NCBI GenBank assembly: GCA_024688885.1
Contig: JAILDV010000042.1
Location: 1-41,059, forward strand
Length of the DNA: 41,059 nucleotides
Origin: Bacteroidaceae bacterium
GTDB taxonomy: Bacteria; Bacteroidota; Bacteroidia; Bacteroidales; Bacteroidaceae
Direction: 5' to 3'
The position numbers and the translations under genes are program-made. Each line of letters begins with the position of its first letter. Within the stretch, counting starts at the first letter, position 1. The notes under the pieces were generated by a model. That model was not told the origin of the DNA. It saw only the letters and a program-made list of their open reading frames with translations, and made no database searches. This document shows positions 1,863 through 20,705 of this stretch, piece by piece.

Positions 1863-2240
1863 ATGGAGGAGATAAAGAAGGCAAGGAATTTTCGTAACTA
1901 CAAGGTATGGCAAGATGCGGTGAATTATGCATCTAAAGTGTATAAGGTGACAGCTGATTTACCTTGGTTCGAAAAGAAAGGGTTGTGTGATCAGTTGCAA
2001 CGAGCAGTTGTATCAATAAGCAGTAATATTGCAGAAGGGTCTGCAAAACCCTCAGACAATGACTTTGCACATTTCCTTGATATGGCATTAGGCTCTGCCT
2101 TTGAAGTTGAGACTCAACTATTGATTTCCAAGAATACCGGTTATATTGATGCTGGACTATTTGATGGGTTAATGGAGGATCTCAAAGATATTGAGCGTCA
2201 GATTAACGGCCTTATTTCGAAAATTCGAAATCAACGTTAA
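1863..2240 (+). CDS. Four helix bundle protein (S23/23S-IVS-type family)
   Basis: The 125-residue sequence has the family signature: the opening NYKVWQDAVNYASKVY, then LCDQLQRAVVSISSNIAEGSA, and a C-terminal helix with ISKNTGYID. Members form small pentameric four-helix bundles. They occur as ORFs in 23S rRNA intervening sequences and, in Bacteroidales, are often scattered in polysaccharide gene clusters. Their molecular role is not settled. Here the gene starts 22 bp after the aminotransferase and both ends touch hexamer repeats, so the repeats may have spread around this cassette. Confidence 0.85.
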   Translation: MEEIKKARNFRNYKVWQDAVNYASKVYKVTADLPWFEKKGLCDQLQRAVVSISSNIAEGSAKPSDNDFAHFLDMALGSAFEVETQLLISKNTGYIDAGLFDGLMEDLKDIERQINGLISKIRNQR

Positions 2241-2316
2241 CGATAAAGGTAACAGGATTGATAAGTTGTTAAGGTCAAGGTTAAAAAAATAGTTAAGGTT
2301 AACGTTATGGTTAAGG
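2234..2316 (+). repeat. Degenerate hexamer-like repeats (GTTAAC/GGTTAA type) at the dehydratase fragment
   Basis: AACGTTAACGATAA, then AAGGTCAAGGTT, and TTAAGGTTAACG followed by ATGGTTAAGGTT. The array runs from the stop of the four-helix gene into the first codons of the next ORF, exactly where the N-terminal domain of that protein is missing. Confidence 0.7.
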
Positions 2317-2558
2317 TTGTTCTCAAAGCCCTTTGGCAATTTTGTGGATATCGTGAAGAACCTGTAAAGGTTATTGACATGGGAACCTTCTATGCTGTGT
2401 CGGCTGATAACCGTGACTTGAACTACGATAAGTACTTCAAGGAAGGTGATACTAAGCGTGCGTTGAATGATGAGTTTAACTCGAATAACACTAAGATTCT
2501 AAATTTGGAGGAAACGAAGGAGAAGATTGCGAGCCTGACGTTTATTCAGAATGAGTAG
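2307..2558 (+). pseudogene. C-terminal remnant of an FnlA/CapE-type UDP-GlcNAc 4,6-dehydratase/epimerase
   Basis: Only 83 codons remain. From about residue 28 the sequence matches the C-terminal domain of CapE/FnlA-like proteins (Polysacc_syn_2C type): VSADNRDLNYDKYF, then an acidic stretch, NSNNTKILNLEETKEKI and a final leucine/phenylalanine-rich end. The Rossmann-type short-chain dehydrogenase domain (about 280 residues with GxxGxxG) is absent. What precedes the conserved part begins inside a hexamer repeat, so loss by repeat-associated deletion is plausible. I treat it as a broken gene. WbuC, whose gene normally accompanies fnlA in N-acetylfucosamine loci, lies at 8425 beyond the defence operon. 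Confidence 0.7.
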
Positions 2559-2629
2559 AATGGTATACCGAATTTGGTGTAGTCTAAACCAGATATCTAT
2601 TCTGGGAAGGTGCCGGTAAAAATAAATAT

Positions 2630-3310
2630 ATGATAGAGATTCATCCGTCTATAGATATAGAGACATTTGCCACCAAGATAAAAAACTCATTGCAAAGGAG
2701 TGCGGAGATAGAAGAACTTCAGAGCATGAGTGAGATTGGCGATATGTCCTCTTTCAGCAAGGCTGTTGTATATGTTACAGTGGTCAGTGTGTATATTGAT
2801 GAGACAACTTACCGCAATTTGGCAGATCGTGCAATAATCACAGAATCCATATGTGCTGCTTTTGCGGAACACCCTAAATGTAAGGACGTAGTTTCACTTG
2901 GCAACTATATAGTAGGTGTTTTCAACACCGCTTTCAAGAATGATATAGACAGTTCGCTGGACAGCGTCGGAAAGGTTATGGCATTGTTTAACTTGGTTAA
3001 TAAGGTCTATGGTCAGACCATGCAGCGAGACATTGCGTATGGCGTAGGGATGAACTATGCTAAAGCCTTATTGGTCAAAAGTATGGGAGGTGATACCCCC
3101 CAGTACACATGGAGCGGTGAAGCAATTACGACAGCAATGAATCTTAGTGAGAAGGCCTCCTACGGTAAAAAAGTATGTGCTTCGTTTACTATCTATAATA
3201 ATTTGAAGGAAGATTACCAGAAGTTGTTTACGAAAGCACTTTTGGAAGGTCATTACGAGGCAACCCCGGTGAATATTGCAATGAATAAGTGGATTAACGC
3301 TAATGTATAA
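2630..3310 (+). CDS. Degenerate class III nucleotide cyclase homology protein (PycC-like), first gene of a RADAR-type operon
   Basis: The 226 residues follow the pattern of Pycsar cyclases. SSFSKAVVYVTVVSV (40-54) corresponds to the first metal strand, SLGNYIVGVFNTAFKNDIDS (89-108) to the second, GVGMNYAKALLVKS (138-151) to the glycine-rich strand, and WSGEAITTAMNLSEKA (161-176) to the WMGDVVNxAxxL helix. In active class III cyclases the two metal-binding residues are aspartates; here they are T50 and N92, and the D/N of the last motif are E164 and T167. It is therefore probably catalytically dead and may bind a nucleotide or act as a regulator. Its stop overlaps the possible rdrA start at 3303 by 8 bp, so the genes are probably co-translated. 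The family call rests on remembered motif patterns and a structure prediction would settle it. Confidence 0.65.
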   Translation: MIEIHPSIDIETFATKIKNSLQRSAEIEELQSMSEIGDMSSFSKAVVYVTVVSVYIDETTYRNLADRAIITESICAAFAEHPKCKDVVSLGNYIVGVFNTAFKNDIDSSLDSVGKVMALFNLVNKVYGQTMQRDIAYGVGMNYAKALLVKSMGGDTPQYTWSGEAITTAMNLSEKASYGKKVCASFTIYNNLKEDYQKLFTKALLEGHYEATPVNIAMNKWINANV

Positions 3311-5804
3311 AGATATGGCAGAGAGACGAACCATCACCTTTGATTTTGACAATGACAACCGTCCTATCCGTGAGTCAGAAATAGAGGGAAAACTATTTGA
3401 GCCCCAATACAGACAGTCTCTACTTCAGATAGAGACCTATTTGAGAGAACTTGAACTCGAGAAGACCGAAGAAAGTCAGAAAGAGTCTAAGGACAAGAGT
3501 TATACCGAGCATATCCAAGCAGATATTGACTACAACAACAATATCTTCGCCTTTGAGGGCGGTCGAGGCACTGGCAAGACCTCCTGTATGATTTCCGTGG
3601 TCGGTATGCTTCAAGACAAAACAGGTTTTGATGCCAAGTGCTATCCCAAGATAGAAAAAGACAAGTTTGTCACCATTGACCTAATTGATCCCGCCTATTT
3701 TGACAAGTCGCACAATCTATTGTCACTCTTTCTGGCCAAACTCTATAAAAGTTTCCTTCAGGAGTTGGAAAAGGCAGGCTCTCGTATATCTACCAGCGAC
3801 AAGCAAGACTTTCTCAGCTACTATCGCGAGGCCCACGCCCAACTTCACCGGCTGTACCACGAGAAGAAAAATGCCAATTTCTCTGACGAGGACCTGATGG
3901 AGTATGTAGAGGAAGTATCCGCCTCGGTGAATCTCAAGCGTACTATCAAAGACCTTGTCGATGCCTATATAGACTGTTTCCACTGGAAGGACACTATCCT
4001 TATTCTGCGTATCGATGATGTGGATATGGACTTCGAACACGCCTCAGAAATGATAGAGTCTATGCGGAAATACTTTGTGCAGCCCAATCTTCTAGTGTTT
4101 GTGTCCTGCAGTTTGGAGCAACTTAAGAAGATAAAGACCCAGGATTTTGTCAAAAAGGTTACCGATAAGAAAGATGACCTTCCGACGATAGCTTGGTGTC
4201 AGGAGTTGGCCGACAGATATCTTGGCAAGGTGTTCCCCCAAAGCCATTGTATTAAGATGCCCGCCCCCGCCACCTATCACGACTACGAGTTGGTGGTCAC
4301 CGGTAAATTTGTCACAGAGGCAGGCAAGGAAGTTAAGCTTGAGAATGACGGGGATGTTAAAGACAAAGAACTATGCAGCCGGGAGTTTGTCTCTGTAAAG
4401 CAAGCTTTGCTGGAGTTGATTCTGAAGAAGACCCGCTACCTCTTCTATAACACCAGCTATTATGAAAGTTACATAGTACCCCAGAACCTCCGCGAGTTGC
4501 GTCAGTTGATGAAACTTCTGATTACGATGCCCGACTACAATACAGGAAATGAGCCCAACCGCCACAACAAGACCCTTTTCAAGGAGTATTTCTATGGCTC
4601 CTGGGTACAGTCCAACCTTGCGGATGAGGACCGCAGGCTGGTTCAGAAGATGCAAAGTGTACACGACATGACACTTTTCAACAAGACGTTGAAGCAGATT
4701 CTCATAGAACGTTTTACGGTAACGGACGATTTAAGGGAATACGAAAAGGCGCCCGTCAGTACCTCCAATATTCTGGCTGTCATTTCTGCCGTTGAGCCAC
4801 AACTGATACAGGAACGTGACCGTAAGCTGTTGTTCTTTATCAAGTCCTACTATTCCATCCTTCTGTATGACACCTATTGTGAAGTGTTGGGTGAGCTTGA
4901 TGAAAACGGAATGCGACCCTTGGAACGCAAGCTGAAAGGCGAGGATGGCAAAACCAACAGTCCTATCATTCGTAAAGACCGCTGGCGCGAATACTATGAC
5001 TACGAAAAGTTGATTGGTGGATCTTTTATCCGGCTGAGCAAACCCAATACGGAAGATACTGTCCTGAAAGCAGAAGGTCTTAGTCAATATGCGACAGAGT
5101 GTATAGCATTGTGCGGGAAGGGGACGTTGAGTGCTGAAGAGTCCGCCAAGATTCTGATGGCAGAACTGCTGATACTATCTATCTACTGTGCCCGCGTCAA
5201 TAGTGAAGATGCCAATTTAAGCATATACGAGCAGTGGAAAACCCTTCCTGCCAAGGAGGAGAAACCGGAACTGGTGATTAGTGTAGGTGCGTTGCTTTTC
5301 AATATCACCCGTTACGACCAGTCCATTTGCCGTTACAGCAAAGTTTTCTACGAGGCAATAAGCAGCAATGCCAGTTACATATCCTTCAAGAGACGCATCA
5401 CCAACGCTGAAGAACAGAAGAACGATTTTGGGTATATCCACAGAGTATCGCTTCGTAACTTCGAGGTATTGCAAGACCTTCTTTCCGATTATCAAGAGAA
5501 AAAGTCAGACTCCCGTCTGTCCCAGTTCTTCAATGAACTGGCTTATGTGGCCGGCTATTCCTTTCCGCTGTACGAGTACAAAGATGACAATCAGGAGAAT
5601 TACAACAAGATACACCTTACCTTCCTGAAAAGAATTATGGAAGCGGTAGAACCCGCCAGGAACGACCAGGAATCCATCAATAAACTGTTTGAGAACACGA
5701 ACCCTCAGACACCAGAAACTCCAGATGCTACAGGAAACCCTGCGCCTGTTGTTTCAGACCCAGCAGCCCAGCACGCTGTTGAAGGCACTGAAACAGCCCA
5801 GTAA
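3303..5804 (+). CDS. rdrA: RdrA-like ATPase of a RADAR anti-phage system
   Basis: A large P-loop ATPase of 833 residues. Walker A is GGRGTGKT (86-93) and Walker B with paired aspartates is ILRIDDVD (D238-D239), which with the helical remainder resembles KAP/STAND-like AAA ATPases such as RdrA. The tail (last 45 residues) is Pro/Thr/Ala-rich and disordered-looking. In RADAR, RdrA forms ring assemblies that work with the deaminase RdrB. The identification depends mainly on the next gene being an RdrB-type deaminase. The start may be ATG 3303 (8-bp overlap with the cyclase-like gene) or ATG 3315. The 3' end overlaps rdrB by about 80 bp. Confidence 0.8.
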   Translation: MYKDMAERRTITFDFDNDNRPIRESEIEGKLFEPQYRQSLLQIETYLRELELEKTEESQKESKDKSYTEHIQADIDYNNNIFAFEGGRGTGKTSCMISVVGMLQDKTGFDAKCYPKIEKDKFVTIDLIDPAYFDKSHNLLSLFLAKLYKSFLQELEKAGSRISTSDKQDFLSYYREAHAQLHRLYHEKKNANFSDEDLMEYVEEVSASVNLKRTIKDLVDAYIDCFHWKDTILILRIDDVDMDFEHASEMIESMRKYFVQPNLLVFVSCSLEQLKKIKTQDFVKKVTDKKDDLPTIAWCQELADRYLGKVFPQSHCIKMPAPATYHDYELVVTGKFVTEAGKEVKLENDGDVKDKELCSREFVSVKQALLELILKKTRYLFYNTSYYESYIVPQNLRELRQLMKLLITMPDYNTGNEPNRHNKTLFKEYFYGSWVQSNLADEDRRLVQKMQSVHDMTLFNKTLKQILIERFTVTDDLREYEKAPVSTSNILAVISAVEPQLIQERDRKLLFFIKSYYSILLYDTYCEVLGELDENGMRPLERKLKGEDGKTNSPIIRKDRWREYYDYEKLIGGSFIRLSKPNTEDTVLKAEGLSQYATECIALCGKGTLSAEESAKILMAELLILSIYCARVNSEDANLSIYEQWKTLPAKEEKPELVISVGALLFNITRYDQSICRYSKVFYEAISSNASYISFKRRITNAEEQKNDFGYIHRVSLRNFEVLQDLLSDYQEKKSDSRLSQFFNELAYVAGYSFPLYEYKDDNQENYNKIHLTFLKRIMEAVEPARNDQESINKLFENTNPQTPETPDATGNPAPVVSDPAAQHAVEGTETAQ

Positions 5805-8289
5805 AGACTGGAAAACACCAGTCAACACTGTCAATAAAGAGCCTTATCTCTACCGAGCCAGCCGTCGCGGGACAAAAGGCTCGTTAGATCAGCTTGTCGT
5901 GCAGTTGGATGTCATTGGTGACTTCTATTTCAGCAAACCAGAGGATGTCTGTGAGTTACATTTTTCAGACACCCCATCAGTCCTTAACCCGTTACTTCAT
6001 TTTTCGAAGGATAAACTGATTGTTGACGATGGATCTCTAAATTGCCGGTATAGGACGATTGACGAATGGCACGAAGTGACCTCACGCTTAGGAGAAGACC
6101 TCTTCACTTCAGCCTACCTGGCCGCTTACGACTTGCAACGCGGCCTCCGGCCTCGGAAACGCTTCTTATGGGATCCTTACCTGAATGTGGAAACCGCAGA
6201 TGTGAACCATCTGTTTACACGCAGTATAGCGGAGGTTCATGCCCACCTGAAAGGCTCATCTGCCAACTTTGAATTAAGCTGGCTCTCACTGATGAATTAT
6301 CCTAGCCACCGAGAGAGCGATTTCCTTCAACTCTTTGACAAAAAGACTTTTGAGGGTGAAGACAAAAAGATGCGAGACCTCAGAGAATTGTACCTCTGTT
6401 TTGCCTCTGCTGTAGCCTTACGGCTATGGTTGTTTGCCAGTCAATCAGGATTGGATGATTCATTAGCGGACATAGAGAAATGGATAAAAGAATTAGACAA
6501 AGACAAAAGCATTGAAGAAATAGGCAGTGTATTGAGTGAGATGTCCGCAATGGCATGGAATTACCGGACAGCATTGGGGTATCGCTATGATATCAGCGGT
6601 ATCAAGGGGAAATGTCCGGACTATGCCATCAAAGATGGAGGCGCGGAACTGGTGTCCATCCTAAGTGGCGAACGAAGCATCTTGTACAATGCCTTCCGCA
6701 AAGCGTATGATGGTGATGAAACAGTTTCACTCTACCTATATTCCTACATTATTTTCAAGCAGCAGTTGCGAGAGAAGATTATCCAGTTGAATGATGTGGT
6801 AGGTTTTGCCAATTTTGATAACTACGAGCGTCGCAAGAGTTGTTTCATCCCAGACGGTTCAATTTACGAACGCCTCTTGATACCGATGGCATTCCTATTC
6901 TTCCTTGGGCAAAAGGAAAGCAACCGCTATATGGAAGGACGGGTAGCGCCCAAGGCTAGCGTAGAGGATAACAGTGAGGCGGTGAGAAAGATGGACCGGT
7001 ATGTAGAAGCCTGGCTTCCGGAAGAAGAATCTAACGAAGAAGATAAGAAGAAAGACAAGAAGTTCAAGGGCTACTATATCTACCACTTCATTAAGGAGGG
7101 TGACGTTGCTCCTTCCGCCTTTGCGCCCCGTCATTTCAAGTTGCGCCAGAAAGTAAAGAAGCAAGCGATTGCGTTATTCGATTACAGAAATAAGGGTTAT
7201 ATCAGTTCTTCCCGAGTTGTAGGCGTTGATGCCGCTAACTCTGAGATTAAGTGCCGACCGGAAGTGTTTGCGCAAGCCTTCCGTTTTCTGCGCAGACACG
7301 ACATTCGGGAAGATGTTAAGAATCATCCGGCCTCACTTGGTTTTACCTATCACGTAGGCGAAGACTTCTATGATATAGTGGATGGTTTGCGTGCAGTTGA
7401 TGAGGTGCTCACCTTTATGAATTTTCGCAGCAACGACCGTCTGGGTCACGCCTTAGTTCTGGGCACCGATGTGAAACGTTATTATGACAGCCGCGACAGG
7501 GCAATACGCGCAACCCGCCAAGTGTTGCTTGACAATTTTGTATGGCTCTATGTGAGGACAGCGAAGATAGCAGGCAGAAACGCCTTGTGCGAGTACTTGG
7601 AACAAGAAGCTAAGCATCTGTACAGGATTATCTACTCGGATATCGCAGACCAAATTCCGTTCGATGTCTATGACTACTACGACTCCTGGCTGTTGCGTGG
7701 CGATGCACCAGAGACAGTCATCAGTGATGTCAAAGAAGACCTGAGTATCAGTGGCTGGGACAAGTGCGCCAAGAATACTGTAGAAAAAGATGTTAATCGC
7801 GCGCGTGAGAATGATAATGCCAAGAAACTCTATTATGAGTACCACTATAATAAACAGGCCAAGGAGAACGGCAACAAAGCGATTATACTGCCCATAGTCC
7901 ACAACCACTATGAAGAGTTTGTGGAAATGGTTGACCGTATCCGTGAGGTACTTCTCTGCAAGGTAGAGCGCCTTCATATAGCCATAGAATGTAATCCATC
8001 TTCCAACCTCCGTATAGGTGAGATGACCAGCTATATAGAGCATCCTATTTTCAGATTTAATAACTTTGGTCTGAACACCCCTTATCCACCTCACGAGATA
8101 AGCGTCTCTATAAACACCGACGATTCTGGCGTGTTTGCTACGTCCTTAGAGCGTGAATACGCTCTGATGGGGATTGCCTTGGAAAAGACAGACAATCCAC
8201 AATTCAAGAATACTCCCAGAGCCGTAAAAGAATGGCTGAACAGGGTGCGGAAGATGTCGGTTGAGCAGAGGTTTGTGAAGGATATTTAG
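5725..8289 (+). CDS. rdrB: RdrB-like adenosine deaminase of a RADAR anti-phage system
   Basis: This large protein (854 residues from ATG 5725) carries the metal-dependent adenosine deaminase signature spread over its length. HAH lies at H172/H174 (AEVHAHLKGSS) and HVGE at H543-E546. RLGHA with H575, ECNPSSN, and INTDDSGVF with D799-D800 follow. RdrB is the deaminase of RADAR; published work reports conversion of adenosine to inosine in RNA and/or of ATP in the nucleotide pool during infection. All expected metal and catalytic positions are present, so it should be active, unlike the cyclase-like first gene. ATG 5725 is the first ATG in frame and lies inside rdrA. A TTG at 5689 extends the frame by 12 codons and later TTG codons are possible, so the start is uncertain. 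Confidence 0.85.
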   Translation: MLQETLRLLFQTQQPSTLLKALKQPSKDWKTPVNTVNKEPYLYRASRRGTKGSLDQLVVQLDVIGDFYFSKPEDVCELHFSDTPSVLNPLLHFSKDKLIVDDGSLNCRYRTIDEWHEVTSRLGEDLFTSAYLAAYDLQRGLRPRKRFLWDPYLNVETADVNHLFTRSIAEVHAHLKGSSANFELSWLSLMNYPSHRESDFLQLFDKKTFEGEDKKMRDLRELYLCFASAVALRLWLFASQSGLDDSLADIEKWIKELDKDKSIEEIGSVLSEMSAMAWNYRTALGYRYDISGIKGKCPDYAIKDGGAELVSILSGERSILYNAFRKAYDGDETVSLYLYSYIIFKQQLREKIIQLNDVVGFANFDNYERRKSCFIPDGSIYERLLIPMAFLFFLGQKESNRYMEGRVAPKASVEDNSEAVRKMDRYVEAWLPEEESNEEDKKKDKKFKGYYIYHFIKEGDVAPSAFAPRHFKLRQKVKKQAIALFDYRNKGYISSSRVVGVDAANSEIKCRPEVFAQAFRFLRRHDIREDVKNHPASLGFTYHVGEDFYDIVDGLRAVDEVLTFMNFRSNDRLGHALVLGTDVKRYYDSRDRAIRATRQVLLDNFVWLYVRTAKIAGRNALCEYLEQEAKHLYRIIYSDIADQIPFDVYDYYDSWLLRGDAPETVISDVKEDLSISGWDKCAKNTVEKDVNRARENDNAKKLYYEYHYNKQAKENGNKAIILPIVHNHYEEFVEMVDRIREVLLCKVERLHIAIECNPSSNLRIGEMTSYIEHPIFRFNNFGLNTPYPPHEISVSINTDDSGVFATSLEREYALMGIALEKTDNPQFKNTPRAVKEWLNRVRKMSVEQRFVKDI

Positions 8290-8424
8290 AGTGGTAAACT
8301 TAATACAGGCATTATTCTTTCATTAAGGGTATACAGATGATACTGTGTACTGTACTGGGGAAGAATATGAAGTATGCTGGGGAGGAGGTCTGATAGTTTA
8401 GAGTTTAGAGACAGTTAAAAGCTA
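8290..8424 (+). other. Gap between the defence operon and wbuC
   Basis: No gene seen. It ends with a short heptamer motif (GTTTAGA twice, about 8395-8408) just before the WbuC gene; the same GTTTAGA/GTTTAGG type makes up the array at 30782. Confidence 0.5.
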
Positions 8425-8823
8425 ATGGTTATTACAACAAAGGAGATACTGGATGAATTAACTGCTAAGGCCAAGGAGAATCCGAGGTTGCGTTGCAATC
8501 TGGATATGAGCAACTCTGCAGATGACCAGTCGCAACGGATGCTGAATGCACTAGAGCCTGGGACTGTGATGCCAATACACAGGCACTTGGCTTCATCAGA
8601 AACAGTCATTATCATACGAGGTGGAATAAGATGGCTGTTCTACGATGAGCAGGGCCGGATAACCGAATCTACGGAATTATGGAGCGACGGAGATGTTAGG
8701 ATGCTCAATGTAGAGAAAGGCCGCTGGCACTCGCTGGAGTGTTTAGAGTCCGGTTCTGTATTGTTTGAGGCGAAGGATGGGCCGTATCAACCATTATCTC
8801 CCGAAGATATAATGGAGGTTTAA
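8425..8823 (+). CDS. WbuC-family cupin fold metalloprotein
   Basis: A 132-residue cupin with the family segments NSADDQSQRMLNALEPGTVMPIHRH and SSETVIIIRGG, then KGRWHSLECLESGSVLFEAKDGPY. The metal ligands expected of the fold (HRH, the following E, and the H of RWH) are all present. WbuC proteins are encoded in O-antigen and capsule loci, typically near N-acetylfucosamine genes; their reaction is not established. This gene is separated from the aminotransferase and dehydratase fragment by the 5.7-kb defence operon, suggesting that operon inserted into a polysaccharide locus. A second WbuC domain is fused to a membrane protein at 22470. Confidence 0.88.
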   Translation: MVITTKEILDELTAKAKENPRLRCNLDMSNSADDQSQRMLNALEPGTVMPIHRHLASSETVIIIRGGIRWLFYDEQGRITESTELWSDGDVRMLNVEKGRWHSLECLESGSVLFEAKDGPYQPLSPEDIMEV

Positions 8824-8898
8824 GGAGCTTAAGTGTTAAAGAAATGTTAATTATTGGCTAATTCCGAGTATCGAGCCATTTAGTTGGGAAATTATTTG

Positions 8899-8906
8899 TA
8901 TTTTTG
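8899..8906 (+). promoter_or_regulatory. Bacteroidetes-type -7 box (TATTTTTG)
   Basis: TATTTTTG fits TAnnTTTG and is 27 bp before the ATPase start at 8934. No good TTTG is seen at the expected -33 distance. It marks the likely 5' end of the transcript running towards 17020. Confidence 0.5.
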
Positions 8907-8933
8907 CAAATTAATAAACATTGATTTGAAACG

Positions 8934-9938
8934 ATGATAACTTCTACAATAATAAAGGGATTCGGACCGGTGAGGGATTTTCAATGGAACGGCACCGGCA
9001 GAATAAACCTGGTGATAGGACCCAATAAGTCGGGTAAGACATACCTGCTGAAGGCTCTCTACTCAGCCGTCAAAACGGTGGAGGCATACAAGCGTGGCAA
9101 GGAAGTGAGACGCGATGCTGAGATTCTGTTTGACAAGTTGTACTGGACCTATCAGCCGGACCAGCTAGGGAAGCTCGTTTCTACCGGCAGCAAGGCGGTG
9201 GAGTTTGCCATGAGTATGGAGGGGAATCAAGACTTCGCGTATTCTTTCGGTCCGTCAGCCAATAAGCAGGTGACAGTGACAAAGAATACCTGCCAGCCAC
9301 GACCGCAGAACTCCATCTTCCTGCCGGCCAAAGAGATTATATCTTTGCAGCAGATTATTATTAGGGTGAGAGATGACTATAAGGAGTTCGGTTTCGATGA
9401 CACTTATTATGACCTTGCAAAGGCTTTAACACCTAGTGTTAAGGGACGAAATTATAAAGAATTTTCCGTATCTAGAATGGCGTTGGAGAGTGCTATCGGT
9501 GGTCATATAGAGTATGATTTGGAGCGGAAGGAATGGGTGTTCCGTGAGGGAAAGCAGACTATCAGTATAGCTATGGCATCGGAAGGTGTAAAGAAGCTCT
9601 CCATCCTGGATGCCTTGTTGGGAAATCACTATCTCTCAAAAGGCTCTATTATATTCATTGACGAGCCTGAGTGTGCGCTGCACCCCAGACTGGTGTCACA
9701 ATTGATGGATATTATAGCAGAACTGACGAAAGCTGGGTTGCAGTTTTTTATTGCTTCGCATTCATACTTTGTAATTAAGAAACTGTATCTGCTGGCTCAC
9801 CAAAAGAATCTGTCGATTCCTGTGGTTTCGTTTGATGAGAACGGCGGTTGGCGAACTTCTGACCTTCGCAAAGAGATGCCCGAGAATCCTATTGTGGAGG
9901 AATCAATAAGGCTTTACACCGAAGAAATCAATCTTTAA
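8934..9938 (+). CDS. AAA/ABC-type ATPase (AAA_21/OLD-like), possible defence gene
   Basis: A compact SMC/OLD-like ATPase of 334 residues. Walker A is GPNKSGKT near residue 29, an SEGVKKLSIL signature-like segment lies in the second half, Walker B is IIFIDEPECALHP, and the switch histidine is in ASHSYFVIKKL. Such stand-alone ATPases usually pair with a nuclease or other effector in phage-defence systems. Here a small PD-(D/E)XK-like gene follows after 15 bp and would be the partner. No C-terminal Toprim domain is present, so it is not a classical OLD nuclease. The exact family cannot be named from sequence alone. Confidence 0.8.
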   Translation: MITSTIIKGFGPVRDFQWNGTGRINLVIGPNKSGKTYLLKALYSAVKTVEAYKRGKEVRRDAEILFDKLYWTYQPDQLGKLVSTGSKAVEFAMSMEGNQDFAYSFGPSANKQVTVTKNTCQPRPQNSIFLPAKEIISLQQIIIRVRDDYKEFGFDDTYYDLAKALTPSVKGRNYKEFSVSRMALESAIGGHIEYDLERKEWVFREGKQTISIAMASEGVKKLSILDALLGNHYLSKGSIIFIDEPECALHPRLVSQLMDIIAELTKAGLQFFIASHSYFVIKKLYLLAHQKNLSIPVVSFDENGGWRTSDLRKEMPENPIVEESIRLYTEEINL

Positions 9939-9953
9939 AATGAGAAGTGGTTT

Positions 9954-10454
9954 ATGGTGACATTTGAAGAGTCAGGAATGACTTTCTCATTTGAGGAGAG
10001 CGATATTTTCTACATTGAGAAGTCGGAGCGTTTCAGCACGATTGAAGGCGCAAAGCCATGTGAGTGTGTGGTACTGCACGATGGCAAGGTGTCTTTGATA
10101 GAAGCCAAAAGTTCGACTCCCCGTCCAGAGAATGCGGAGCAGTTTTTGACATTTGTAGGCGAAATAGCACAAAAGTTTAATGACAGTTATACATATTACA
10201 ATGCCGCCCACCAGAAACGTCAGCAGCCGGATGAGGTTTCGCACAATCAACAGTCGATACCGTTAGCCCGACAGAATTATGAGTTTTGTCTTATTATCAA
10301 TGGACACCCACGTGAATGGTTGTCACCTGTACTTGATCAGTTGAAGAAGACGATGAAGAAGTCGCTGAAATTGTGGGGATTTGACGATGCTTGTGTGAAG
10401 GTGTTGAATGAACAAGGGGCATTAAGTAAAGGACTGATTGCAAAAATAGGATGA
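9954..10454 (+). CDS. Small PD-(D/E)XK-nuclease-like protein, partner of the preceding ATPase
   Basis: The 166-residue protein has an E37-x12-E50-A-K52 arrangement within two predicted strands (CECVVLHDGKVSLIEAKSS), which is the core of the PD-(D/E)XK nuclease fold with Glu in place of the first Asp. The rest is helical with conserved-looking QNYEFCLIINGHPREWL. Sitting 15 bp after an ATPase gene, it could be the effector of a two-gene defence unit. Its last codons overlap the next gene by 4 bp (ATGA), indicating translational coupling to the peptidase. The nuclease call is an inference from a short motif. Confidence 0.6.
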   Translation: MVTFEESGMTFSFEESDIFYIEKSERFSTIEGAKPCECVVLHDGKVSLIEAKSSTPRPENAEQFLTFVGEIAQKFNDSYTYYNAAHQKRQQPDEVSHNQQSIPLARQNYEFCLIINGHPREWLSPVLDQLKKTMKKSLKLWGFDDACVKVLNEQGALSKGLIAKIG

Positions 10455-11476
10455 CTGAAGGATTGCTCAATAAACTCTTGATGACAGCGGCACCCTCGGG
10501 ATATGAGGGGGCGGTGCAGGTTGTGTTCAGAGAGCACATCGCTCCCTACGTGGCCAGCACAGAGACGGACACGATGGGGAATGTGATAGCCGTAAGACCA
10601 GGACCAGAGGGATGCCCGAAGGTGATGCTGACAGCGCACTGCGACGAAATAGGATTTCTGGTGAGCAATATTGATGACAACGGGTTCCTTTTTGTGCAGG
10701 AAATAGGCGGCATAGACACCGAACTGCTGCCTGGTCGGAAAGTGGAGATACACACAGCGAAAGGTACAGTGAACGGCATCTTCGGGAAAAAAGCCTTTCA
10801 CCTGACAAGAGGAGAGGAGAAAAAGAAGCTGGAAATCAGCGATGTGTGGCTGGACATAGCGGCAAGTGACAAGAAGGATGCGGAGGATAAAGTGCAGATA
10901 GGAGACTATGTAACTTTTGCCAAAGATGCCGTATTCAACAACAACGGGATAGTGGCTAGTCCCTCAACAGATGACCGCATAGGCGTGTGGACACTGATAG
11001 AGACGGCACGGCAGCTGAGCGGTGAGGAACTGGGATGCAGCGTGTACTTTGTGTCCACCTGCCAAGAAGAGTTGGGCGCACGTGGTGCTAAGACGGCAGC
11101 AGACTATATACACCCCGACGTAGGCATAGCGATAGACGTGACCCATGCAACGGACTATCCCACGGCAGACACCAAGTTGACGGGCTTTATTGGGATAGGA
11201 AAAGGGCCAGTGATAACGATGGGGCCCAATATTAACCGGGAGGTTTGTCGGGGACTGAAAACGGCTACGAGAGAGGGGAACGTGCAGTATGAAGCTATAG
11301 CCCGTCCCACAGGAACCGATGCCAATGTGATGCAATTGAGTAGCTGTGGCGTGAAGACGGGGTTGGTGAGCATTCCCTGCCGCTATATGCATACGCCCTA
11401 TGAGGTGGTAAGTATAGAAGATGCGCGGGGCGCAGCCAAACTGTTGGCAAATTATCTGAAATCACTTAAAATGTGA
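10451..11476 (+). CDS. M42-family metallo-aminopeptidase (glutamyl aminopeptidase/endoglucanase-M family)
   Basis: The 341 residues contain the M42 metal and catalytic set: AHCDE (H63), the DD of STDDRIG, QEELGARG with the general-base glutamate pair, AIDVTHATD, and a final histidine in CRYMHTPYE. These enzymes form large tetrahedral dodecamers that trim amino acids from the N-terminus of peptides in the cytoplasm. The gene is coupled by ATGA to the nuclease-like gene and is followed 40 bp later by a 34-codon peptide gene and a radical SAM maturase. A role in trimming the modified peptide is possible, but a housekeeping role is equally consistent. Confidence 0.92.
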   Translation: MTEGLLNKLLMTAAPSGYEGAVQVVFREHIAPYVASTETDTMGNVIAVRPGPEGCPKVMLTAHCDEIGFLVSNIDDNGFLFVQEIGGIDTELLPGRKVEIHTAKGTVNGIFGKKAFHLTRGEEKKKLEISDVWLDIAASDKKDAEDKVQIGDYVTFAKDAVFNNNGIVASPSTDDRIGVWTLIETARQLSGEELGCSVYFVSTCQEELGARGAKTAADYIHPDVGIAIDVTHATDYPTADTKLTGFIGIGKGPVITMGPNINREVCRGLKTATREGNVQYEAIARPTGTDANVMQLSSCGVKTGLVSIPCRYMHTPYEVVSIEDARGAAKLLANYLKSLKM

Positions 11477-11516
11477 CTATATAGTAACAAATTGTTTAAT
11501 TTAAATTTTTTTCACC

Positions 11517-11621
11517 ATGGAAGAAAGAATTGTATTGACCTGGACTGAGAAGGAGTCCAACGAGACGGCTCGTATGGGAGCAATGTACTGCTTCAAGAGC
11601 TGCGATGTGAACAGAAACTAA
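11517..11621 (+). CDS. Short peptide, candidate RiPP precursor of the adjacent radical SAM enzyme
   Basis: A 34-codon ORF starting ATGGAAGAAAG. Its charged first part (MEERIVLTWTEKESNE) would be the leader, and a short C-terminal part with a C-x3-C pair in MYCFKSCD would be the core, ending VNRN. It lies alone between the peptidase and a strong terminator hairpin, directly before a radical SAM/SPASM gene with a PqqD-like N-terminus. That is the typical arrangement of ribosomally made, radical-SAM-modified peptides. No ribosome binding site of the AGGAGG type is visible, which is usual in this phylum. The call rests on context. Confidence 0.6.
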   Translation: MEERIVLTWTEKESNETARMGAMYCFKSCDVNRN

Positions 11622-11642
11622 GGCTTCTGGGAACAAAAAACG

Positions 11643-11681
11643 AGTCTGTGTCGGACGGTGCACAATCCGACACAGACTTTT
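11643..11681 (+). terminator. Strong intrinsic terminator/attenuator between peptide and radical SAM genes
   Basis: A perfect 13-bp stem AGTCTGTGTCGGA / TCCGACACAGACT with a 10-nt loop, followed by TTTTA. It would end most transcripts after the peptide gene and let a fraction read into the maturase, giving excess peptide over enzyme. Confidence 0.85.
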
Positions 11682-11698
11682 ATCCGTTATTATAGAAG

Positions 11699-13030
11699 AT
11701 GAAACAACTGCAGCGTGAGATAGGGATGGGGGATGTGCTCCACTTCCCGAAAGACATAACATACCTGCACTACGAGGACAGGATTGTGGCCGTGGCCGTG
11801 GAGACGGCCAACTGGATAGTGCTGCCATCGGTGAGCAGCAAGGGATACTTGGAAGAACTATGTGCAGGAAAGACCGTTGGGGAGGTGATGGGGCAGATAG
11901 AGAATGCAGGAGAGAAACGACTCTTCCTGAAACTGCTGACGGCCATCATGGCGCGGCAGTTTGCAGGGCAGGATGAAGTTCCTGAACCCGAGTATGTTGC
12001 AGGTCACAAGATGCTGAACATCTATCTGACAAATGCCTGTAACCTGAGATGCCCGCATTGTTTTATGAAAGCGGGCAAGCGGCTTGCGAACGAACTGACG
12101 ACAGACGAGTGGGTAAGCGTGCTGAGAGATTTTAAGGAATGCGGGGGGACAGCCGTGACCTTGACAGGCGGTGAACCGACGATGCATCCTGGGTTCAGAA
12201 CCATTGTAGAAAGTGCCCATGGGATGGGACTGCAACTGACGGTGCTGACTAACGGCATCTTGTGGAATGACGAACTGATAGATGAACTGTCGCCCTGTAT
12301 GGCAGAAGTGCAGATTAGCATTGACGGTGTGGACGACGCCTCGAATGCCAAGATACGGCAAGCTGGGACATTTGAGACGCTGGTGAGGAATGTAATACGC
12401 TTTTCGAGAAACGGCGTGAGGGTATCGGTGGCCACCACTTTTACGAATGACAATATAGACGCTGCGGAGAACTACGCAGAGTTGGTGAACCGCATAAATG
12501 AGGAGACCGACAAAAAGGTCATCTTCAAACTGACCAAGAAAATACTACCCGGAAGGGACACACATTATAGCGAAGAGGAAAACAAGACCTACGAGGAAAA
12601 GATACGGCAGGTGGAGGAACTGACGGATGCGAATGCGAAGTATGAGGCTTTTATGGAGGGGCATACGCCTAACCTGGTTTCGACCAACTGCGGATTTGGA
12701 GGACTCTCGGTGGCAGCAGACGGAGAAGTGTATTTCTGCAACCGCGTGCTGGAGATTGTGTCGCAAGGCAATGTACGGGAACATCCGCTGAGCTATTTCC
12801 TGGAATTGGGTGAACAGGCTCACGAGGAGACTGGCATAGCGCACGTGGAGCCATGCAGACGTTGCGCCATCAGAAATGTGTGTGGTGGAGGTTGCCGGAT
12901 AGATGAATATGACTTCAGAGGACGTACTTGGGAGAAGGGACAGATACTGAGACAAACGAAGTGTGGCTGTCCGAATGAGTATCTGCTGAAGATGATGGTG
13001 GAGAGTTACGAGTATAAATATTCGTTTTAG
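11699..13030 (+). CDS. Radical SAM/SPASM peptide maturase with PqqD-like N-terminus
   Basis: The 443-residue enzyme has three parts. Residues about 10-90 read like a PqqD/RRE peptide-binding domain (VETANWIVLPSV..., ending CAGKTVGEVM). The radical SAM core has the cluster motif C114-NLR-C118-PH-C121 and the GGEP motif. The C-terminal SPASM region is cysteine-rich (TNCGFGG, YFCNR, PCRRCAIRNVCGGGC, KCGCP) for auxiliary Fe-S clusters. Such enzymes install thioether, C-C or similar crosslinks in a precursor peptide, and the likely substrate is the 34-residue peptide just upstream. The SNF2 gene begins 3 bp after the stop, so the two are co-transcribed. Confidence 0.9.
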   Translation: MKQLQREIGMGDVLHFPKDITYLHYEDRIVAVAVETANWIVLPSVSSKGYLEELCAGKTVGEVMGQIENAGEKRLFLKLLTAIMARQFAGQDEVPEPEYVAGHKMLNIYLTNACNLRCPHCFMKAGKRLANELTTDEWVSVLRDFKECGGTAVTLTGGEPTMHPGFRTIVESAHGMGLQLTVLTNGILWNDELIDELSPCMAEVQISIDGVDDASNAKIRQAGTFETLVRNVIRFSRNGVRVSVATTFTNDNIDAAENYAELVNRINEETDKKVIFKLTKKILPGRDTHYSEEENKTYEEKIRQVEELTDANAKYEAFMEGHTPNLVSTNCGFGGLSVAADGEVYFCNRVLEIVSQGNVREHPLSYFLELGEQAHEETGIAHVEPCRRCAIRNVCGGGCRIDEYDFRGRTWEKGQILRQTKCGCPNEYLLKMMVESYEYKYSF

Positions 13031-13033
13031 ACC

Positions 13034-15328
13034 ATGGCGTACAGGATAGCCTGCATATACGTGGAAGAGCAATCCTCGCTCAAGGAGGTGAGGCTGGAGG
13101 TGTGCAATGATGGCACATCCACCCAAATTGCTCCGTTTGTGCGTAAGGCTACTGTCGCGGATTTGGCAAAGGACGAGAACATACTGACACGGAATTTCGC
13201 TCTTTTGCTGAATGGATTAGGGTTCGTGTATCAACCCTTTGTGTTGAATGGGAGAGTGCTGGAGAACCCTGATGTCGGGGAACTGTTGAAAAGAAATGGG
13301 TATAGCTTTATACAGAGTGGCGGAAGCCGGTCGCTGAAGAAGGGAAACCTGCCGCTGATTGTAGGCGGAGCGGGCTTGGATATGGGAACGCTTTTGGGCG
13401 GTACGTTATACATTACGAACCAGGCCAACTGGAAAAGTGGTATAGAGGTGAGGCTGCGTTATCAGGATGCCGTTACGGAGGTACTACCTTATTACAACAC
13501 ATATCCCTTAAGAACGGTACAAGGCGGCTATCTGAAACGTGACGCCTGGGCTGAAGAGAGACTCTTGAAGACCTTGCAGCCATATGCTGTAGATGAGAGC
13601 GGATGCATTACGTTGGCGAGTTATGATGTGGACTTCCTGAGCGGTCTGGAAACGCAAGGCTGGACAGTGATGTATGCTAAGAAGAAGGCAAAACCATCGA
13701 AGTTGCATTTTAGGAGAACATCTTCTGGTATCCAGTGGTTTTCGACCAATGAGGATACGGAAGATGAGATTACAGGAAAACTATTGGAAGCTTATCTGCA
13801 TGGACGGAATTTCCAGCAGGGACGCGGCGGAGCTCTTTTCTTTTCGGGGTCGAGCGTTGAAAAGCAGGAGGGGGAAGATTTTGCAGCGGTTTATCTGCAG
13901 AACAAGAGCCTCGTAGAGAAATACAGAGAAGAAACACTGACGGAAGAAGAGAAAAAGGCCGTCAGGGAAGTGATAGAAAAGGACTTCAAGGCTGTACTAC
14001 GCGGGTATCAGTGGGATGGCTTGTATTGGCTGGCCACGATGCGGAAAAAACACTGTGGGTGTATCCTGGCAGACGAGATGGGGCTGGGCAAGACCCTACA
14101 GGTATTGGCTCATCTGGCAGCGTGCGGCAATGTACGGACACTAATCGTGGTTCCGACATCGCTCGTGAGCAATTGGAATGCAGAGAGACGACGGTTCCTG
14201 CCATCGTGGGAAGGGCAGGTGGCTCTGAATGAGCGAGAGCCGGTAATGGATAAGCGAGTGCATATCATCTCTTATGAAATGCTGCGGCGGAATATCGGGC
14301 ACTACAAGAACGTGCATTTTGATACACTGGTGCTGGACGAGGCACAGGTGCTGAAGAATGACGGCACGCAGCGGCACAAGGTGATAGCGCAACTGAACTT
14401 CGATCATGGGATTGTGATGACGGGCACCCCGATAGAGAATGCCGTAGATGATGTGTGGTCGTACTTCTATATTATTATGCCCGGGATGCGAGCAGTGCAT
14501 GATCGGCTGAAGAGGATGGCAGAAGGGGAGACCCGATCGGTGGCATTTCTGAAGATTTCGTCGAAGTTGTTGAATCCGTTTATATTGCGGAGAACGAAGA
14601 AGGAATATCTGAAAGAGCTGCCAGAGTGCGTGGAGCGGAATGTCTACGTGGCACTGGACAAAGAAGAACAAGCGACGTATGACCGTGTGCAGAAGATATT
14701 CGGAAAGGCATTGCGGGACGGCACCAGCGGACGGGTGACGAGTATTGCTCTGGAGGCTCTGCTGAGGTTGAGGCAGACCTGTGTGTCGGTGAACCTATTG
14801 CCATCGACACTATATAAAGGCGGACGCAGGATGTCGTCGAAGATGGCACTTGTGCTTGGGCAGATAGGACAACTGGGGGAGGATGATAAGCTGATAGTGT
14901 TCTCGCAGTTTGTGCAGGCACTGGAAGAGTTGGAGGAGTATCTGATGGAATATGGTATTCCTTATGTTTGCTTGTATGGTACGACAAGTGACCGAGAGTC
15001 TCCTGTGGTTGCGTTCCAGGAGGATACCACCGTGAAGGTGTTCTTGTTGAGCATCAAGGCAGGTGGCGTGGGGTTGAATCTGACGGCGGCAGACTATGTA
15101 TTGCTGCTGGACGATTGGTGGAACCCCGCTGTGGAAGTGCAGGCTTTTTCGAGGGCTCATCGGATAGGACAGAAACGGAACGTGGAAGTGATACGACTGG
15201 TATGCAAAGACACCGTAGAAGAAAAAATTCTGGCTCTGCAGCAGAGCAAACAGCAGACTGCGGATGTGTTTAGTCTGAATAGCGGGAAACTGACGGCAGA
15301 GGAGCTTAAGATGCTGGTGGAGAGATGA
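13034..15328 (+). CDS. SNF2-family DEAD-like helicase/translocase
   Basis: The last 430 residues form a full SNF2 motor. Motif I is DEMGLGKT from residue 347, the DEAQ box is VLDEAQ, motif III is MTGTPIEN, and the helicase C domain has SIKAGGVGLNLTAADYV, LLDDWWNPAVEVQA and RAHRIGQ. The first ~310 residues are not recognised. These ATPases move along double-stranded DNA or remodel protein-DNA complexes, and in bacteria occur in restriction-like defence loci such as DISARM. Being 3 bp behind a radical SAM peptide maturase is unusual. Confidence 0.93.
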   Translation: MAYRIACIYVEEQSSLKEVRLEVCNDGTSTQIAPFVRKATVADLAKDENILTRNFALLLNGLGFVYQPFVLNGRVLENPDVGELLKRNGYSFIQSGGSRSLKKGNLPLIVGGAGLDMGTLLGGTLYITNQANWKSGIEVRLRYQDAVTEVLPYYNTYPLRTVQGGYLKRDAWAEERLLKTLQPYAVDESGCITLASYDVDFLSGLETQGWTVMYAKKKAKPSKLHFRRTSSGIQWFSTNEDTEDEITGKLLEAYLHGRNFQQGRGGALFFSGSSVEKQEGEDFAAVYLQNKSLVEKYREETLTEEEKKAVREVIEKDFKAVLRGYQWDGLYWLATMRKKHCGCILADEMGLGKTLQVLAHLAACGNVRTLIVVPTSLVSNWNAERRRFLPSWEGQVALNEREPVMDKRVHIISYEMLRRNIGHYKNVHFDTLVLDEAQVLKNDGTQRHKVIAQLNFDHGIVMTGTPIENAVDDVWSYFYIIMPGMRAVHDRLKRMAEGETRSVAFLKISSKLLNPFILRRTKKEYLKELPECVERNVYVALDKEEQATYDRVQKIFGKALRDGTSGRVTSIALEALLRLRQTCVSVNLLPSTLYKGGRRMSSKMALVLGQIGQLGEDDKLIVFSQFVQALEELEEYLMEYGIPYVCLYGTTSDRESPVVAFQEDTTVKVFLLSIKAGGVGLNLTAADYVLLLDDWWNPAVEVQAFSRAHRIGQKRNVEVIRLVCKDTVEEKILALQQSKQQTADVFSLNSGKLTAEELKMLVER

Positions 15329-19150: not shown

Positions 19151-19999
19151 ATGACTCAGAAACATCAGATACAGTTATTTGAAGAGAAAAAGGTGCGCAC
19201 CGTGTGGGATGACCAAGAGGAGAAGTGGTATTTCTCCATTGTAGACGTGTGTGCGGTGTTGACAGAGAGCGAGAATCCACAGACCTATTGGCGTGTTCTT
19301 AAAAATCGTTTAAAGAAAGAAGGAAATGAAACCGTTACAAATTGTAACGCTTTGAAGATGTTAGCCTCTGATGGCAAGATGCGCATGACGGATGTTGCTG
19401 ATACAGAGCAACTTTTCCGTTTAATTCAAGGTATACCTTCGAAGAAGGCTGAGCCGTTCAAGCAGTGGATGGCTGAAGTTGCTGCACAGCGTATCGACCA
19501 GATGCAAGACCCGGAACTGAACTTTGAACAGGCATACGCTGATTACCGAAGGCTGGGATATAGTGACAAATGGATTAACCAGCGTTTGCGTAGCATCGAG
19601 GTACGTAAGGAACTGACGGATGAATGGGACAGAGCAGGTGTGAAGGAAGGCCAGCAGTATGCTTCGCTTACTGATATCATTACACAGGGCTGGAGTGGTA
19701 AGACTACCAGACAGTACAAACACTATAAGGGATTGAAAAAGGAGAATCTGCGGGATAACATGACCAACATTGAGTTGGCGCTGAATACACTTGCAGAGGC
19801 TTCGGTTACTGAGATTAGCAAATCAAAGAATCCGAAGGGCTTCCGTCAAAGTGCCGCTGTGGCACGTGAAGGCAGCAAGATAGCAGGTGATGCTCGTAAG
19901 CAACTGGAGCAGCGAGTAGGCCACTCGGTCATATCTTCTGCCAAGGCGGCGGACTACTTGCCACCAGTGGATGATATGGATGCACTGCCGGAGGAGTGA
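19151..19999 (+). CDS. Bro-N domain phage antirepressor-like protein (DinD-type)
   Basis: The 282-residue protein begins with a Bro-N domain (about residues 8-110): VRTVWDDQEEKWYFSIVDVCAVLTESENPQTYWRVLKNRLKKEG, then MRMTDVADTEQLFRLIQGIPSKKAEPFKQWMA. The remainder matches the DinD-like C-terminal helical region with RRLGYSDKWINQRLRSIEVRKELTDEW and LTDIITQGWSGKTTRQYK. Bro-N proteins bind DNA and act as antirepressors or stress-induced factors in prophages. Its stop overlaps the next gene's GTG start (GTGA), suggesting a two-gene unit with the winged-helix protein. Confidence 0.88.
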   Translation: MTQKHQIQLFEEKKVRTVWDDQEEKWYFSIVDVCAVLTESENPQTYWRVLKNRLKKEGNETVTNCNALKMLASDGKMRMTDVADTEQLFRLIQGIPSKKAEPFKQWMAEVAAQRIDQMQDPELNFEQAYADYRRLGYSDKWINQRLRSIEVRKELTDEWDRAGVKEGQQYASLTDIITQGWSGKTTRQYKHYKGLKKENLRDNMTNIELALNTLAEASVTEISKSKNPKGFRQSAAVAREGSKIAGDARKQLEQRVGHSVISSAKAADYLPPVDDMDALPEE

Positions 20000-20289
20000 T
20001 TATAGGTGATGATAAGGATTATAGGGGAAATGGTGATATAACAGGTAAAATTACAGGTAAAGATGCAGGTAATGGCGAATTAAATGGCGAATTAAATGGC
20101 GAATTAAACTCTGCCCCAAAAGCTACCTTGAATTATATTAAAGAGAATGCGGGTTGTAATGCTACGGAAATTTCAGATAAAACAGGTGTGCCCTTCAGCA
20201 CCATTGACAAGCATATCCGTGTCTTGCTGAAAAATGGAATAATTGAACGTCGTGGAAGTAAGAAAACCGGTGGATATTATGTGAAGTGA
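19996..20289 (+). CDS. Winged helix-turn-helix protein with repetitive linker
   Basis: A 97-residue protein whose second half (ATLNYIKENAGCNATEISDKTGVPFSTIDKHIRVLLKNGIIERRG) is a clear winged helix. The first half is a low-complexity linker with TGKITGK and three GELN repeats, and no ATP-binding domain is present. It looks like the detached C-terminus of an AlbA_2-type regulator or a small independent regulator. The GTG start overlaps the Bro-N stop; GGAGG lies a few bases before it. Confidence 0.75.
   Translation: MIIGDDKDYRGNGDITGKITGKDAGNGELNGELNGELNSAPKATLNYIKENAGCNATEISDKTGVPFSTIDKHIRVLLKNGIIERRGSKKTGGYYVK
20074..20109 (+). repeat. 12-bp in-frame tandem repeat, 3 units
   Basis: GGCGAATTAAAT three times (last base C in the third), encoding GELN three times in the linker of the winged-helix protein. 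Confidence 0.92.
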
Positions 20290-20293
20290 GATG

Positions 20294-20322
20294 AGGGCTG
20301 GTGCTTAGGCATCGGCCCTTTG
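20294..20322 (+). terminator. Terminator after the winged-helix gene
   Basis: An 11-bp stem (two wobble pairs) AGGGCTGGTGC / GCATCGGCCCT with loop TTAG, followed by TTTGTTG. Confidence 0.65.
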
Positions 20323-20486
20323 TTGTCGGTCATCCAGAAATAAGATTTGAGAATTTTGAGAAAATCGATAATGGCTGAATATCTAAGATAACCTCAATAA
20401 TTAGGGATTATCAGGGAAGACAGGTGTTTTATAAAATTGCAAGAATTGCAAAAATATTAAATGAAAGCGGTGGATTATGAAAAGCT
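20323..20486 (+). other. Non-coding gap upstream of a strong terminator
   Basis: No gene seen. As a separate terminator at 20294 already closes the winged-helix gene, the strong one at 20487 may end a small RNA or be a leftover of a deleted gene. Confidence 0.35.
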
Positions 20487-20517
20487 ACGGCTAATGTGAA
20501 GATTGGCCGTTTTTTTT
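20487..20517 (+). terminator. Strong intrinsic terminator
   Basis: A 9-bp stem ACGGCTAAT / ATTGGCCGT (one wobble) with a 6-nt loop, followed by eight T. Confidence 0.8.
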
Positions 20518-20553
20518 GAAAAAACGAAGTTGAAATTAACTGCGTTGATTTTT

Positions 20554-20601
20554 GTCACGACTCGGCCATTACCAAGCAAGCTTTGATGGCGCTCGCTGCT
20601 C
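20554..20601 (+). repeat. Dispersed intergenic repeat, copy 1
   Basis: GTCACGACTCGGC, then after a variable stretch TTTGAT and CTCGCTGCTC. The same ordered blocks recur at 26182-26230. Confidence 0.6.
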
Positions 20602-20690: not shown

Positions 20691-20705
20691 CAAAAAGTTC
20701 TAATT

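Follow-up and report, generated by a model that had tools for sequence, protein, structure and literature searches.

The window analysed here, a stretch of 41,059 nucleotides from a Bacteroidaceae bacterium (contig JAILDV010000042.1 of assembly GCA_024688885.1), carries a triad of overlapping genes for a class III cyclase-fold protein (CHD), an RdrA-like ATPase and an RdrB-like deaminase, the last two being relatives of the proteins of the RADAR defence system. About 2 kb downstream of rdrB lies a module (10451-15328) that encodes an M42-family peptidase, a short peptide, a radical SAM protein and an SNF2-family ATPase (Table 1). We propose, with moderate confidence, that the locus is a divergent RADAR with a non-catalytic cyclase-fold subunit, which forms one half of a composite defence locus together with the peptide module. 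The cluster is a Prevotella locus, and we did not find its combination of a RADAR deaminase and a peptide module described. In the open-access literature, no title or abstract retrieved for RADAR with a cyclase, SNF2-radical SAM-peptide/deaminase sets, HIRAN-radical SAM-adenosine deaminase sets, RADAR with SLATT or Csx27, inactive Pycsar cyclases or Prevotella ribosomally synthesised and post-translationally modified peptides (RiPPs) describes the set. The available portion of the main text of a Bacteroidales RiPP survey (PMC10352776) mentions no SNF2, helicase, M42 or deaminase, and that of a rumen bacteriocin survey (PMC13289728) no SNF2 or helicase.

Table 1. Features of the cyclase-fold/RADAR triad and the peptide module; positions refer to the window unless another locus is named.
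Feature	Position	Strand	Basis or remark
CHD, class III cyclase-fold protein, 226 aa	2630..3310	+	PADLOC, alignments, hhalign, AlphaFold2 model
RdrA-like AAA+ ATPase, 833 aa	3303..5804	+	PADLOC, NCBIfam, PDB match, alignment
RdrB-like deaminase, 854 aa from ATG 5725 (frame open from TTG 5689)	5725..8289	+	PADLOC, NCBIfam, PDB, alignment
M42-family aminopeptidase, 341 aa	10451..11476	+	NCBIfam NF040822 9.5e-68, below its cut-off
34-aa peptide, MEERIVLTWTEKESNETARMGAMYCFKSCDVNRN, putative precursor for the radical SAM enzyme	11517..11621	+	
Hairpin 3' of the peptide gene, then TTTTAT; resembles a terminator or attenuator	11642..11679	+	z -4.78 when 11622-11698 is folded
Radical SAM protein with SPASM domain, 443 aa	11699..13030	+	Pfam SPASM at cut-off, 21.5 bits
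SNF2-family ATPase, 764 aa	13034..15328	+	Pfam, homologue searches
CHD ortholog in P. communis (locus L002)	7337-8008		53% identity to window CHD

The initial annotation of this DNA read 2630-8289 as three overlapping genes, for a degenerate PycC-like cyclase, RdrA and RdrB, and the open reading frames (ORFs) agree with it: the first two encode 226 and 833 residues and the third ends at 8289. The first two genes overlap by 8 bp. Since ATG 5725 lines up with the starts of homologues, it is the likely start of rdrB, and with starts as aligned rdrA and rdrB overlap by 80 bp in the window (5725-5804) and by 86 bp in the P. communis locus (L002, 10414-10499). RdrA is recognised by PADLOC (1.3e-13), by NCBIfam NF041743 (89.5 bits, cut-off 600) and by the solved RADAR proteins 8hr7 and 8fnt (best 2.8e-7), and its Walker A (GGRGTGKT) and Walker B (IDD) motifs are aligned with those of relatives. 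RdrB is matched by PADLOC (1e-30), NCBIfam NF041744 (178.9 bits, cut-off 800) and the solved protein 8fnv (1.5e-31), so the identities assigned earlier to both proteins hold. The scores lie far under the NCBIfam cut-offs, and the two are therefore divergent members of their families. The claim that RdrB keeps its metal ligands is likewise upheld, as the motifs HAH, YHVGE, LGH and NTDD are intact and supply the four zinc histidines and the catalytic glutamate. The zinc and catalytic residues (HxH, HxGE, GH, DD) are shared by 23 of 24 other aligned RdrBs, the single exception being a contig-end fragment without the HxH part. For E. coli RADAR, the available text of PMC9994260 describes these residues and a mononucleotide substrate, the E. 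coli RdrB deaminating ATP and dATP. With both genes side by side and both the Walker motifs and the zinc site intact, the locus resembles RADAR; it differs in its cyclase-fold accessory, in its low family scores and in an RdrB clade that comes with a peptide, radical SAM and SNF2 set. RdrB of a SLATT-associated RADAR relative from Aureibacter (L016) is 33% identical.

The triad is found again outside the window. A relative search with RdrA recovered P. communis E15-14 (L002) and a contig of hRUG909 (L003), which starts inside rdrA. The P. communis proteins are 53% (CHD), 68% (RdrA) and 71% (RdrB) identical to those of the window, and the 8-bp overlap of CHD and rdrA is also present. The recurrence of the gene beside another rdrAB pair, on which the initial annotation had staked its proposal, is thus found, as is the structural match to class III cyclases described below. 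A CHD-family hidden Markov model was run over the ORFs of at least 60 residues in 29 loci, 28 of them distinct and several truncated at a contig end. It matches the window, L002 and L045, of which L045 is the same locus as L002. CHD is therefore confined, within this searched set, to two distinct loci of one small clade. The RADAR subtypes listed in the available part of PMC7699616 are standalone, Csx27-associated and SLATT-associated, in agreement with the earlier statement that a cyclase is not among the known accessories. The recurrence in P. communis supports the view that the two triads represent a CHD-associated RADAR subtype, from only two intact loci. Pattern-based searches of viral contigs returned no relative of CHD, RdrA or RdrB, and RdrB had no match in phage records.

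The genes that accompany RdrB most constantly are those of the peptide module. RdrB matches at E<=1e-10 occur in 10 of 395 genomes of the phylum and 16 of 399 of the family. At E<=1e-100 they are reduced to six family genomes, namely that of the window (G000), P. communis (G677), G798, G610, G732 and G035, the next-best family match being 4.8e-92. In all six, the M42 peptidase, the radical SAM protein and the SNF2 ATPase stand beside RdrB. The window SNF2 at E<=1e-100 is likewise found in six of 399 family genomes, the same six as for RdrB; the two draws of 399 are taken to be the same genomes from their equal size and from matching members where these are listed. The exact coincidence of two such sets has a chance probability of 1.9e-13, a figure that ignores relatedness and the choice of cut-off; both cut-offs were chosen after the score gap had been seen, and the RdrB tree supports the same group. 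Within the genus, SNF2 matches at E<=1e-60 are found in 34 of 45 genomes, the full-length form only in G000 and G035, both with RdrB; the other matches are to the helicase part alone of proteins in frames of 1146-1441 residues. The radical SAM protein at E<=1e-40 was found in one of 247 phylum genomes, that of the window. When the hRUG909 contig is added, homologues of M42, radical SAM protein and RdrB are present in 7/7 loci, as is SNF2 (five within the compared stretches, two found separately); in hRUG909 the SNF2 protein is 96% identical to the window's and directly follows the radical SAM gene. Among 98 ORFs of the seven loci, RdrB, radical SAM protein and M42 recur in seven, a small protein in four, RdrA and a cupin in three each and CHD in two. 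Besides these and SNF2, the only recurring ORF is one antisense to a conserved stretch, which the window and L003, being nearly identical, have in common.

The content of these loci is constant and their order is not. The window has CHD-RdrA-RdrB, then a cupin and the HEC-02A/B pair, then M42-peptide-radical SAM-SNF2. In P. communis the order is M42-peptide-radical SAM-SNF2-CHD-RdrA-RdrB on a single strand, and SNF2 and CHD are 7 bp apart; in G732 it is M42-peptide-radical SAM-SNF2-RdrB-HIRAN, with 15 bp between SNF2 and RdrB; in G610 it is RdrB-HIRAN-M42-peptide-radical SAM-SNF2; and in G798 and G035 the RdrB-HIRAN pair is convergent to an SNF2-radical SAM-peptide-M42 set. Shuffled order with constant content favours, not decisively, a functional set over accidental neighbours. 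The differences in order and strand could also be read as the mark of an independent M42-peptide-radical SAM-SNF2 system for which RdrB is no more than a neighbour in a hotspot. Other defence-type pairs do occur at this site (HEC-02 in the window, an AAA pair in L003), and Treponema saccharophilum has a radical SAM-SNF2 pair beside FRG and methyltransferase genes, with no annotated RdrB in the 19 kb viewed. Against this stand the exact 6/6 coincidence of SNF2 and RdrB in 399 genomes, the single RdrB clade and the 7- and 15-bp gaps that join SNF2 to CHD or RdrB in two loci, and we regard a shared hotspot as unlikely, though it is the alternative that survives best.

The short peptide gene is a further constant member. 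In 7/7 loci the M42 and radical SAM genes are separated by a gap that contains an ORF of 34-36 codons, and its product in L003 is identical to that of the window. When the letters of a gap are shuffled, an ORF of 34 or more codons turns up in 2-13% of rounds, depending on the gap; in none of 2000 rounds did this happen in all six gaps together. In the six loci other than L003 the C-terminal 16 residues follow R.GAMYCFK.CDVN.N, with a core GAMYCFKxCDVNxN, and at least 13 of the 16 are identical to the window in the five others compared. Between the window and the HIRAN branch, 13 of these 16 are identical, compared with 3-5 of 18 in the N-terminal part. The peptide codons of the window and P. 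communis, 34 in number, show 10 synonymous and 4 nonsynonymous differences. Each of the six module genomes carries the pattern once, against 0 for the reversed control; viral contigs have no copy, and the peptide has no plasmid match at E 1. The conserved C-terminus and the mostly synonymous change argue for selection on the peptide itself. This bears on the possibility that the ORF serves the radical SAM gene as a translated attenuator leader and does not encode a substrate of the enzyme, a reading invited by the hairpin that lies between the short ORF and the radical SAM coding part. This hairpin occurs 3' of the peptide gene in 6/6 folded loci (the window and five relatives, L003 not among them), with fold z values of -4.78 in the window, -3.95 in L002, -3.55 in L049 and -4.20, -2.44 and -2.66 in L046-L048; the window has no Rfam match. 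A terminator behind an abundant precursor gene is also expected, and the short ORF has no run of one codon. Together with the selection on the peptide, these points make a leader improbable.

CHD itself belongs to the class III cyclase fold, as the initial annotation held. The PADLOC PycC model PDLC02368 matches residues 9-225 (E 2.4e-26), and hhalign pairs CHD with four PycC-type proteins (probability 99.4%, E 4.7e-21). Searched as a single sequence, it finds nothing in the PDB below E 1 and nothing in Pfam above cut-off. An AlphaFold2 model from eight alignment rows (mean predicted local distance difference test, pLDDT, 77.8; predicted template modelling, pTM, score 0.76), which replaced a model from two sequences discarded as too poor (pLDDT 39.7), matches class III cyclases, with 147 PDB fold matches at E<=0.001. 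Among the 50 of these that were listed, the top match is the uridylate cyclase 8jsz (E 4.6e-10, template modelling score TM 0.64, root-mean-square deviation 6.7), and the cyclic UMP synthase 7r65 ranks eighth (E 1e-8, TM 0.65, deviation 4.3), with adenylyl cyclases between them. In class III cyclases two aspartates bind metal, and the asparagine of the VN motif is the transition-state residue. D57 of CHD, the last residue of strand 46-57 in the model, aligns with the first metal aspartate and is invariant in 6/6 and 8/8 aligned sequences. Thr50, which had been named as the replacement of this residue, lies inside the same strand, and both alignment and model rule it out as the metal position. 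The naming of Asn92 for the second aspartate was correct, since the window has GN, and P. communis GS, in place of the PycC motif GD; N92 sits in the turn joining strands 84-89 and 93-98 of the model. The VN-motif asparagine is replaced by Thr in the window and Glu in P. communis. The description of a degenerate cyclase therefore stands for the second metal aspartate and the transition-state asparagine and fails for the first aspartate, and with these two losses CHD is probably inactive as a homodimer.

Could CHD nevertheless be active, as a Pycsar-like cyclase that makes an activator of RdrA? PycC is its closest family, D57 is kept and the model matches pyrimidine cyclases. CHD shares with PycC (PDLC02368; 7r65, 8jsz) the fold, the overall length and the first metal aspartate, and is 27% or less identical to the active-looking members aligned. 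In contrast to PycC, it is without the second metal aspartate, the transition-state asparagine and a neighbouring effector: both catalytic positions are changed in two orthologs, and a PADLOC scan of eight window proteins at 1863-10454 yielded no Pycsar effector. A search of the genome for a further class III cyclase gave no match with PF00211, which also misses CHD, and CHD alone with PDLC02368. An active cyclase appears about as improbable as the leader, if not slightly more so. Inactive class III cyclase domains have precedents in conflict systems, according to the available part of PMC7159879. Those compared are the catalytically inactive cyclic nucleotide monophosphate cyclases of vWA-MoxR systems and the class III cyclase-like ATP-binding protein 6yii; the precedent inactive cyclases are fused in larger proteins, whereas CHD is a free subunit coupled to RdrA.

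The peptide module resembles the RiPP systems of radical SAM enzymes (sactipeptides, ranthipeptides), with a short Cys-x3-Cys precursor-like gene beside an SPASM radical SAM enzyme and an adjacent peptidase. The enzyme carries CX3CX2C at residues 114-121, eight further cysteines (331, 347, 386, 389, 395, 399, 422 and 424) and about 100 residues ahead of the radical SAM domain. The module is unlike those systems in including an SNF2 ATPase and RdrB, in its near-invariant core and in having no recurring exporter. Most bacteriocins vary in their core. That the cluster makes a secreted bacteriocin, with RdrB as a metabolic or immunity add-on, is very unlikely: the best model for the radical SAM enzyme is indeed the sactipeptide maturase StsB (151.9 bits, under the cut-off of 625), but the peptide core hardly varies and no exporter-like family recurs among the 98 ORFs of the seven loci. 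These two features favour an intracellular role.

The RdrB tree (25 rows, leaving out L045, the short contig L055 and the fragment L060) places the module RdrBs in one clade (support 100/99), which splits into a CHD+RdrA branch (three rows, one with only partial rdrA seen) and a HIRAN branch (four rows). RdrB identity to the window falls as low as 36% among the loci that share the peptide. At E<=0.01, RdrA is found in two of the six module genomes and has no match in the other four, a negative that is weaker for G035, which is 88% complete. All four have instead a protein of 110-130 residues next to RdrB. The available part of PMC9994260 states that every known RADAR system has rdrA and rdrB in tandem and that both are essential; the window and P. 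communis keep this arrangement, unlike the sister clade. Because outgroup loci (L016, L019, L021, L022, L050 and L051) keep RdrA, the simplest history is that RdrA was lost in the HIRAN branch, although the RdrA and RdrB trees do not fully agree, at moderate support.

We propose a series of linked steps for the composite locus. The constant core consists of RdrB, the M42 peptidase, the 34-36-residue Cys-x3-Cys peptide, the radical SAM enzyme and the SNF2 ATPase, and RdrB would have an alternative partner, either CHD with RdrA (window, P. communis) or the small, partly HIRAN-like protein (four genomes). CHD may bind a nucleotide and sense changes of the pool during infection, or SNF2/HIRAN may sense abnormal DNA. 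By analogy with known RADAR, RdrA would gate RdrB, a role that would fall to SNF2/HIRAN where RdrA is absent, and RdrB, if it acts like the E. coli enzyme, would deaminate ATP/dATP and limit phage replication. The radical SAM enzyme would modify the peptide and the M42 peptidase trim it, and the product would regulate RdrB or SNF2 or serve one of them as a cofactor; the peptide presumably stays inside the cell, since the loci share no recurring family of exporters. A bolder form of this proposal, which we hold only tentatively, is that the effector is an RdrA-independent RdrB, whose deamination of ATP/dATP would be controlled by an intracellular peptide made by the radical SAM enzyme and by an SNF2 motor, with CHD+RdrA and HIRAN as interchangeable sensors and CHD as a former second-messenger synthase turned nucleotide sensor. 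RADAR is regarded as a two-protein machine with an essential RdrA. The members of the RdrB clade described here keep the active site, and in four of the genomes RdrA could not be detected. If the proposal is true, the RdrB deaminase can be driven by sensors other than RdrA, and radical SAM-modified peptides are linked to nucleotide-depletion immunity, a link not found in the literature searched. CHD would provide a clean test case for a degenerate Pycsar-type cyclase as a nucleotide sensor, and alternative partners of RdrB make the question of the phage signal of RdrA, called unknown in the available text of PMC9994260, a testable one.

Several observations weigh against the composite RADAR and peptide locus that we favour. 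CHD is present in just two intact loci, the third contig beginning inside rdrA. In the window, the cupin and the HEC-02 pair lie between the two halves, so that one operon is not required. The RdrA tree (18 rows, without L020, where rdrA lies in two ORFs, the fragment L003 and L045) and the RdrB tree place the window differently with moderate support (90/90 and 88/92); RdrA may therefore have been swapped between partners, and the trees do not decide. The HIRAN match (PF08797) lies under the Pfam cut-off and in just two of the four small proteins (one at 1.7e-4, 21.8 bits against 24.7, one at 0.071, two with none). The peptide falls in no Pfam or NCBIfam family, apart from a weak HEWD match (E 0.0044) for one of three sequences. 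The DNA before the peptide is also fairly conserved between the window and P. communis (0.77, compared with 0.86 in the peptide ORF and 0.57 after it). Finally, the M42 peptidase may be an aminopeptidase of the housekeeping type.

Further genes lie in and around these loci. HEC-02A/HEC-02B is a candidate defence pair at 8934-10454 of the window, between RdrB and M42 (PADLOC 7e-138 and 3e-46), and L003 has a different AAA ATPase pair at the same place (4030-6071), which suggests a variable slot. An OLD-type ATPase pair (PADLOC PDC-M62A/B) precedes RdrB in G798, and in P. communis rdrB is followed by DUF2806 and AIPR genes (Pfam; L002 12980-15627). WbuC-type cupin domains occur twice in the window: the one at 22470-23924 is joined to a glycosyltransferase family 4 domain, and the one at 8425-8823 stands free. 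L003 and L047 also have the free form next to the module. A four-helix-bundle protein of the 23S-IVP family (1863-2240) and a C-terminal fragment of FnlA (2307-2558) mark the island border, and a Bro-N domain protein and an AAA_14/DUF4143 ATPase lie downstream (19151-21908). The Treponema saccharophilum radical SAM-SNF2 pair (34% and 31% identity) is located with its FRG-domain and methyltransferase genes on plasmid pTS1 (L135 7711-13334), and perhaps serves other effectors. In L020, from a genome of the same class, rdrA is split over two ORFs (6183-8599), and in L019 and L020 (about 8501-11240) a divergent rdrAB stands beside a GIY-YIG/ATPase-like protein of about 725 residues and a MazG-like protein of 115 residues, both recognised by eye. 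A Pycsar locus on the P. sordellii plasmid pCS1-5 (L018 3759-6501) has one effector flanked by a 476-residue PycC and a small cyclase of 245 residues.

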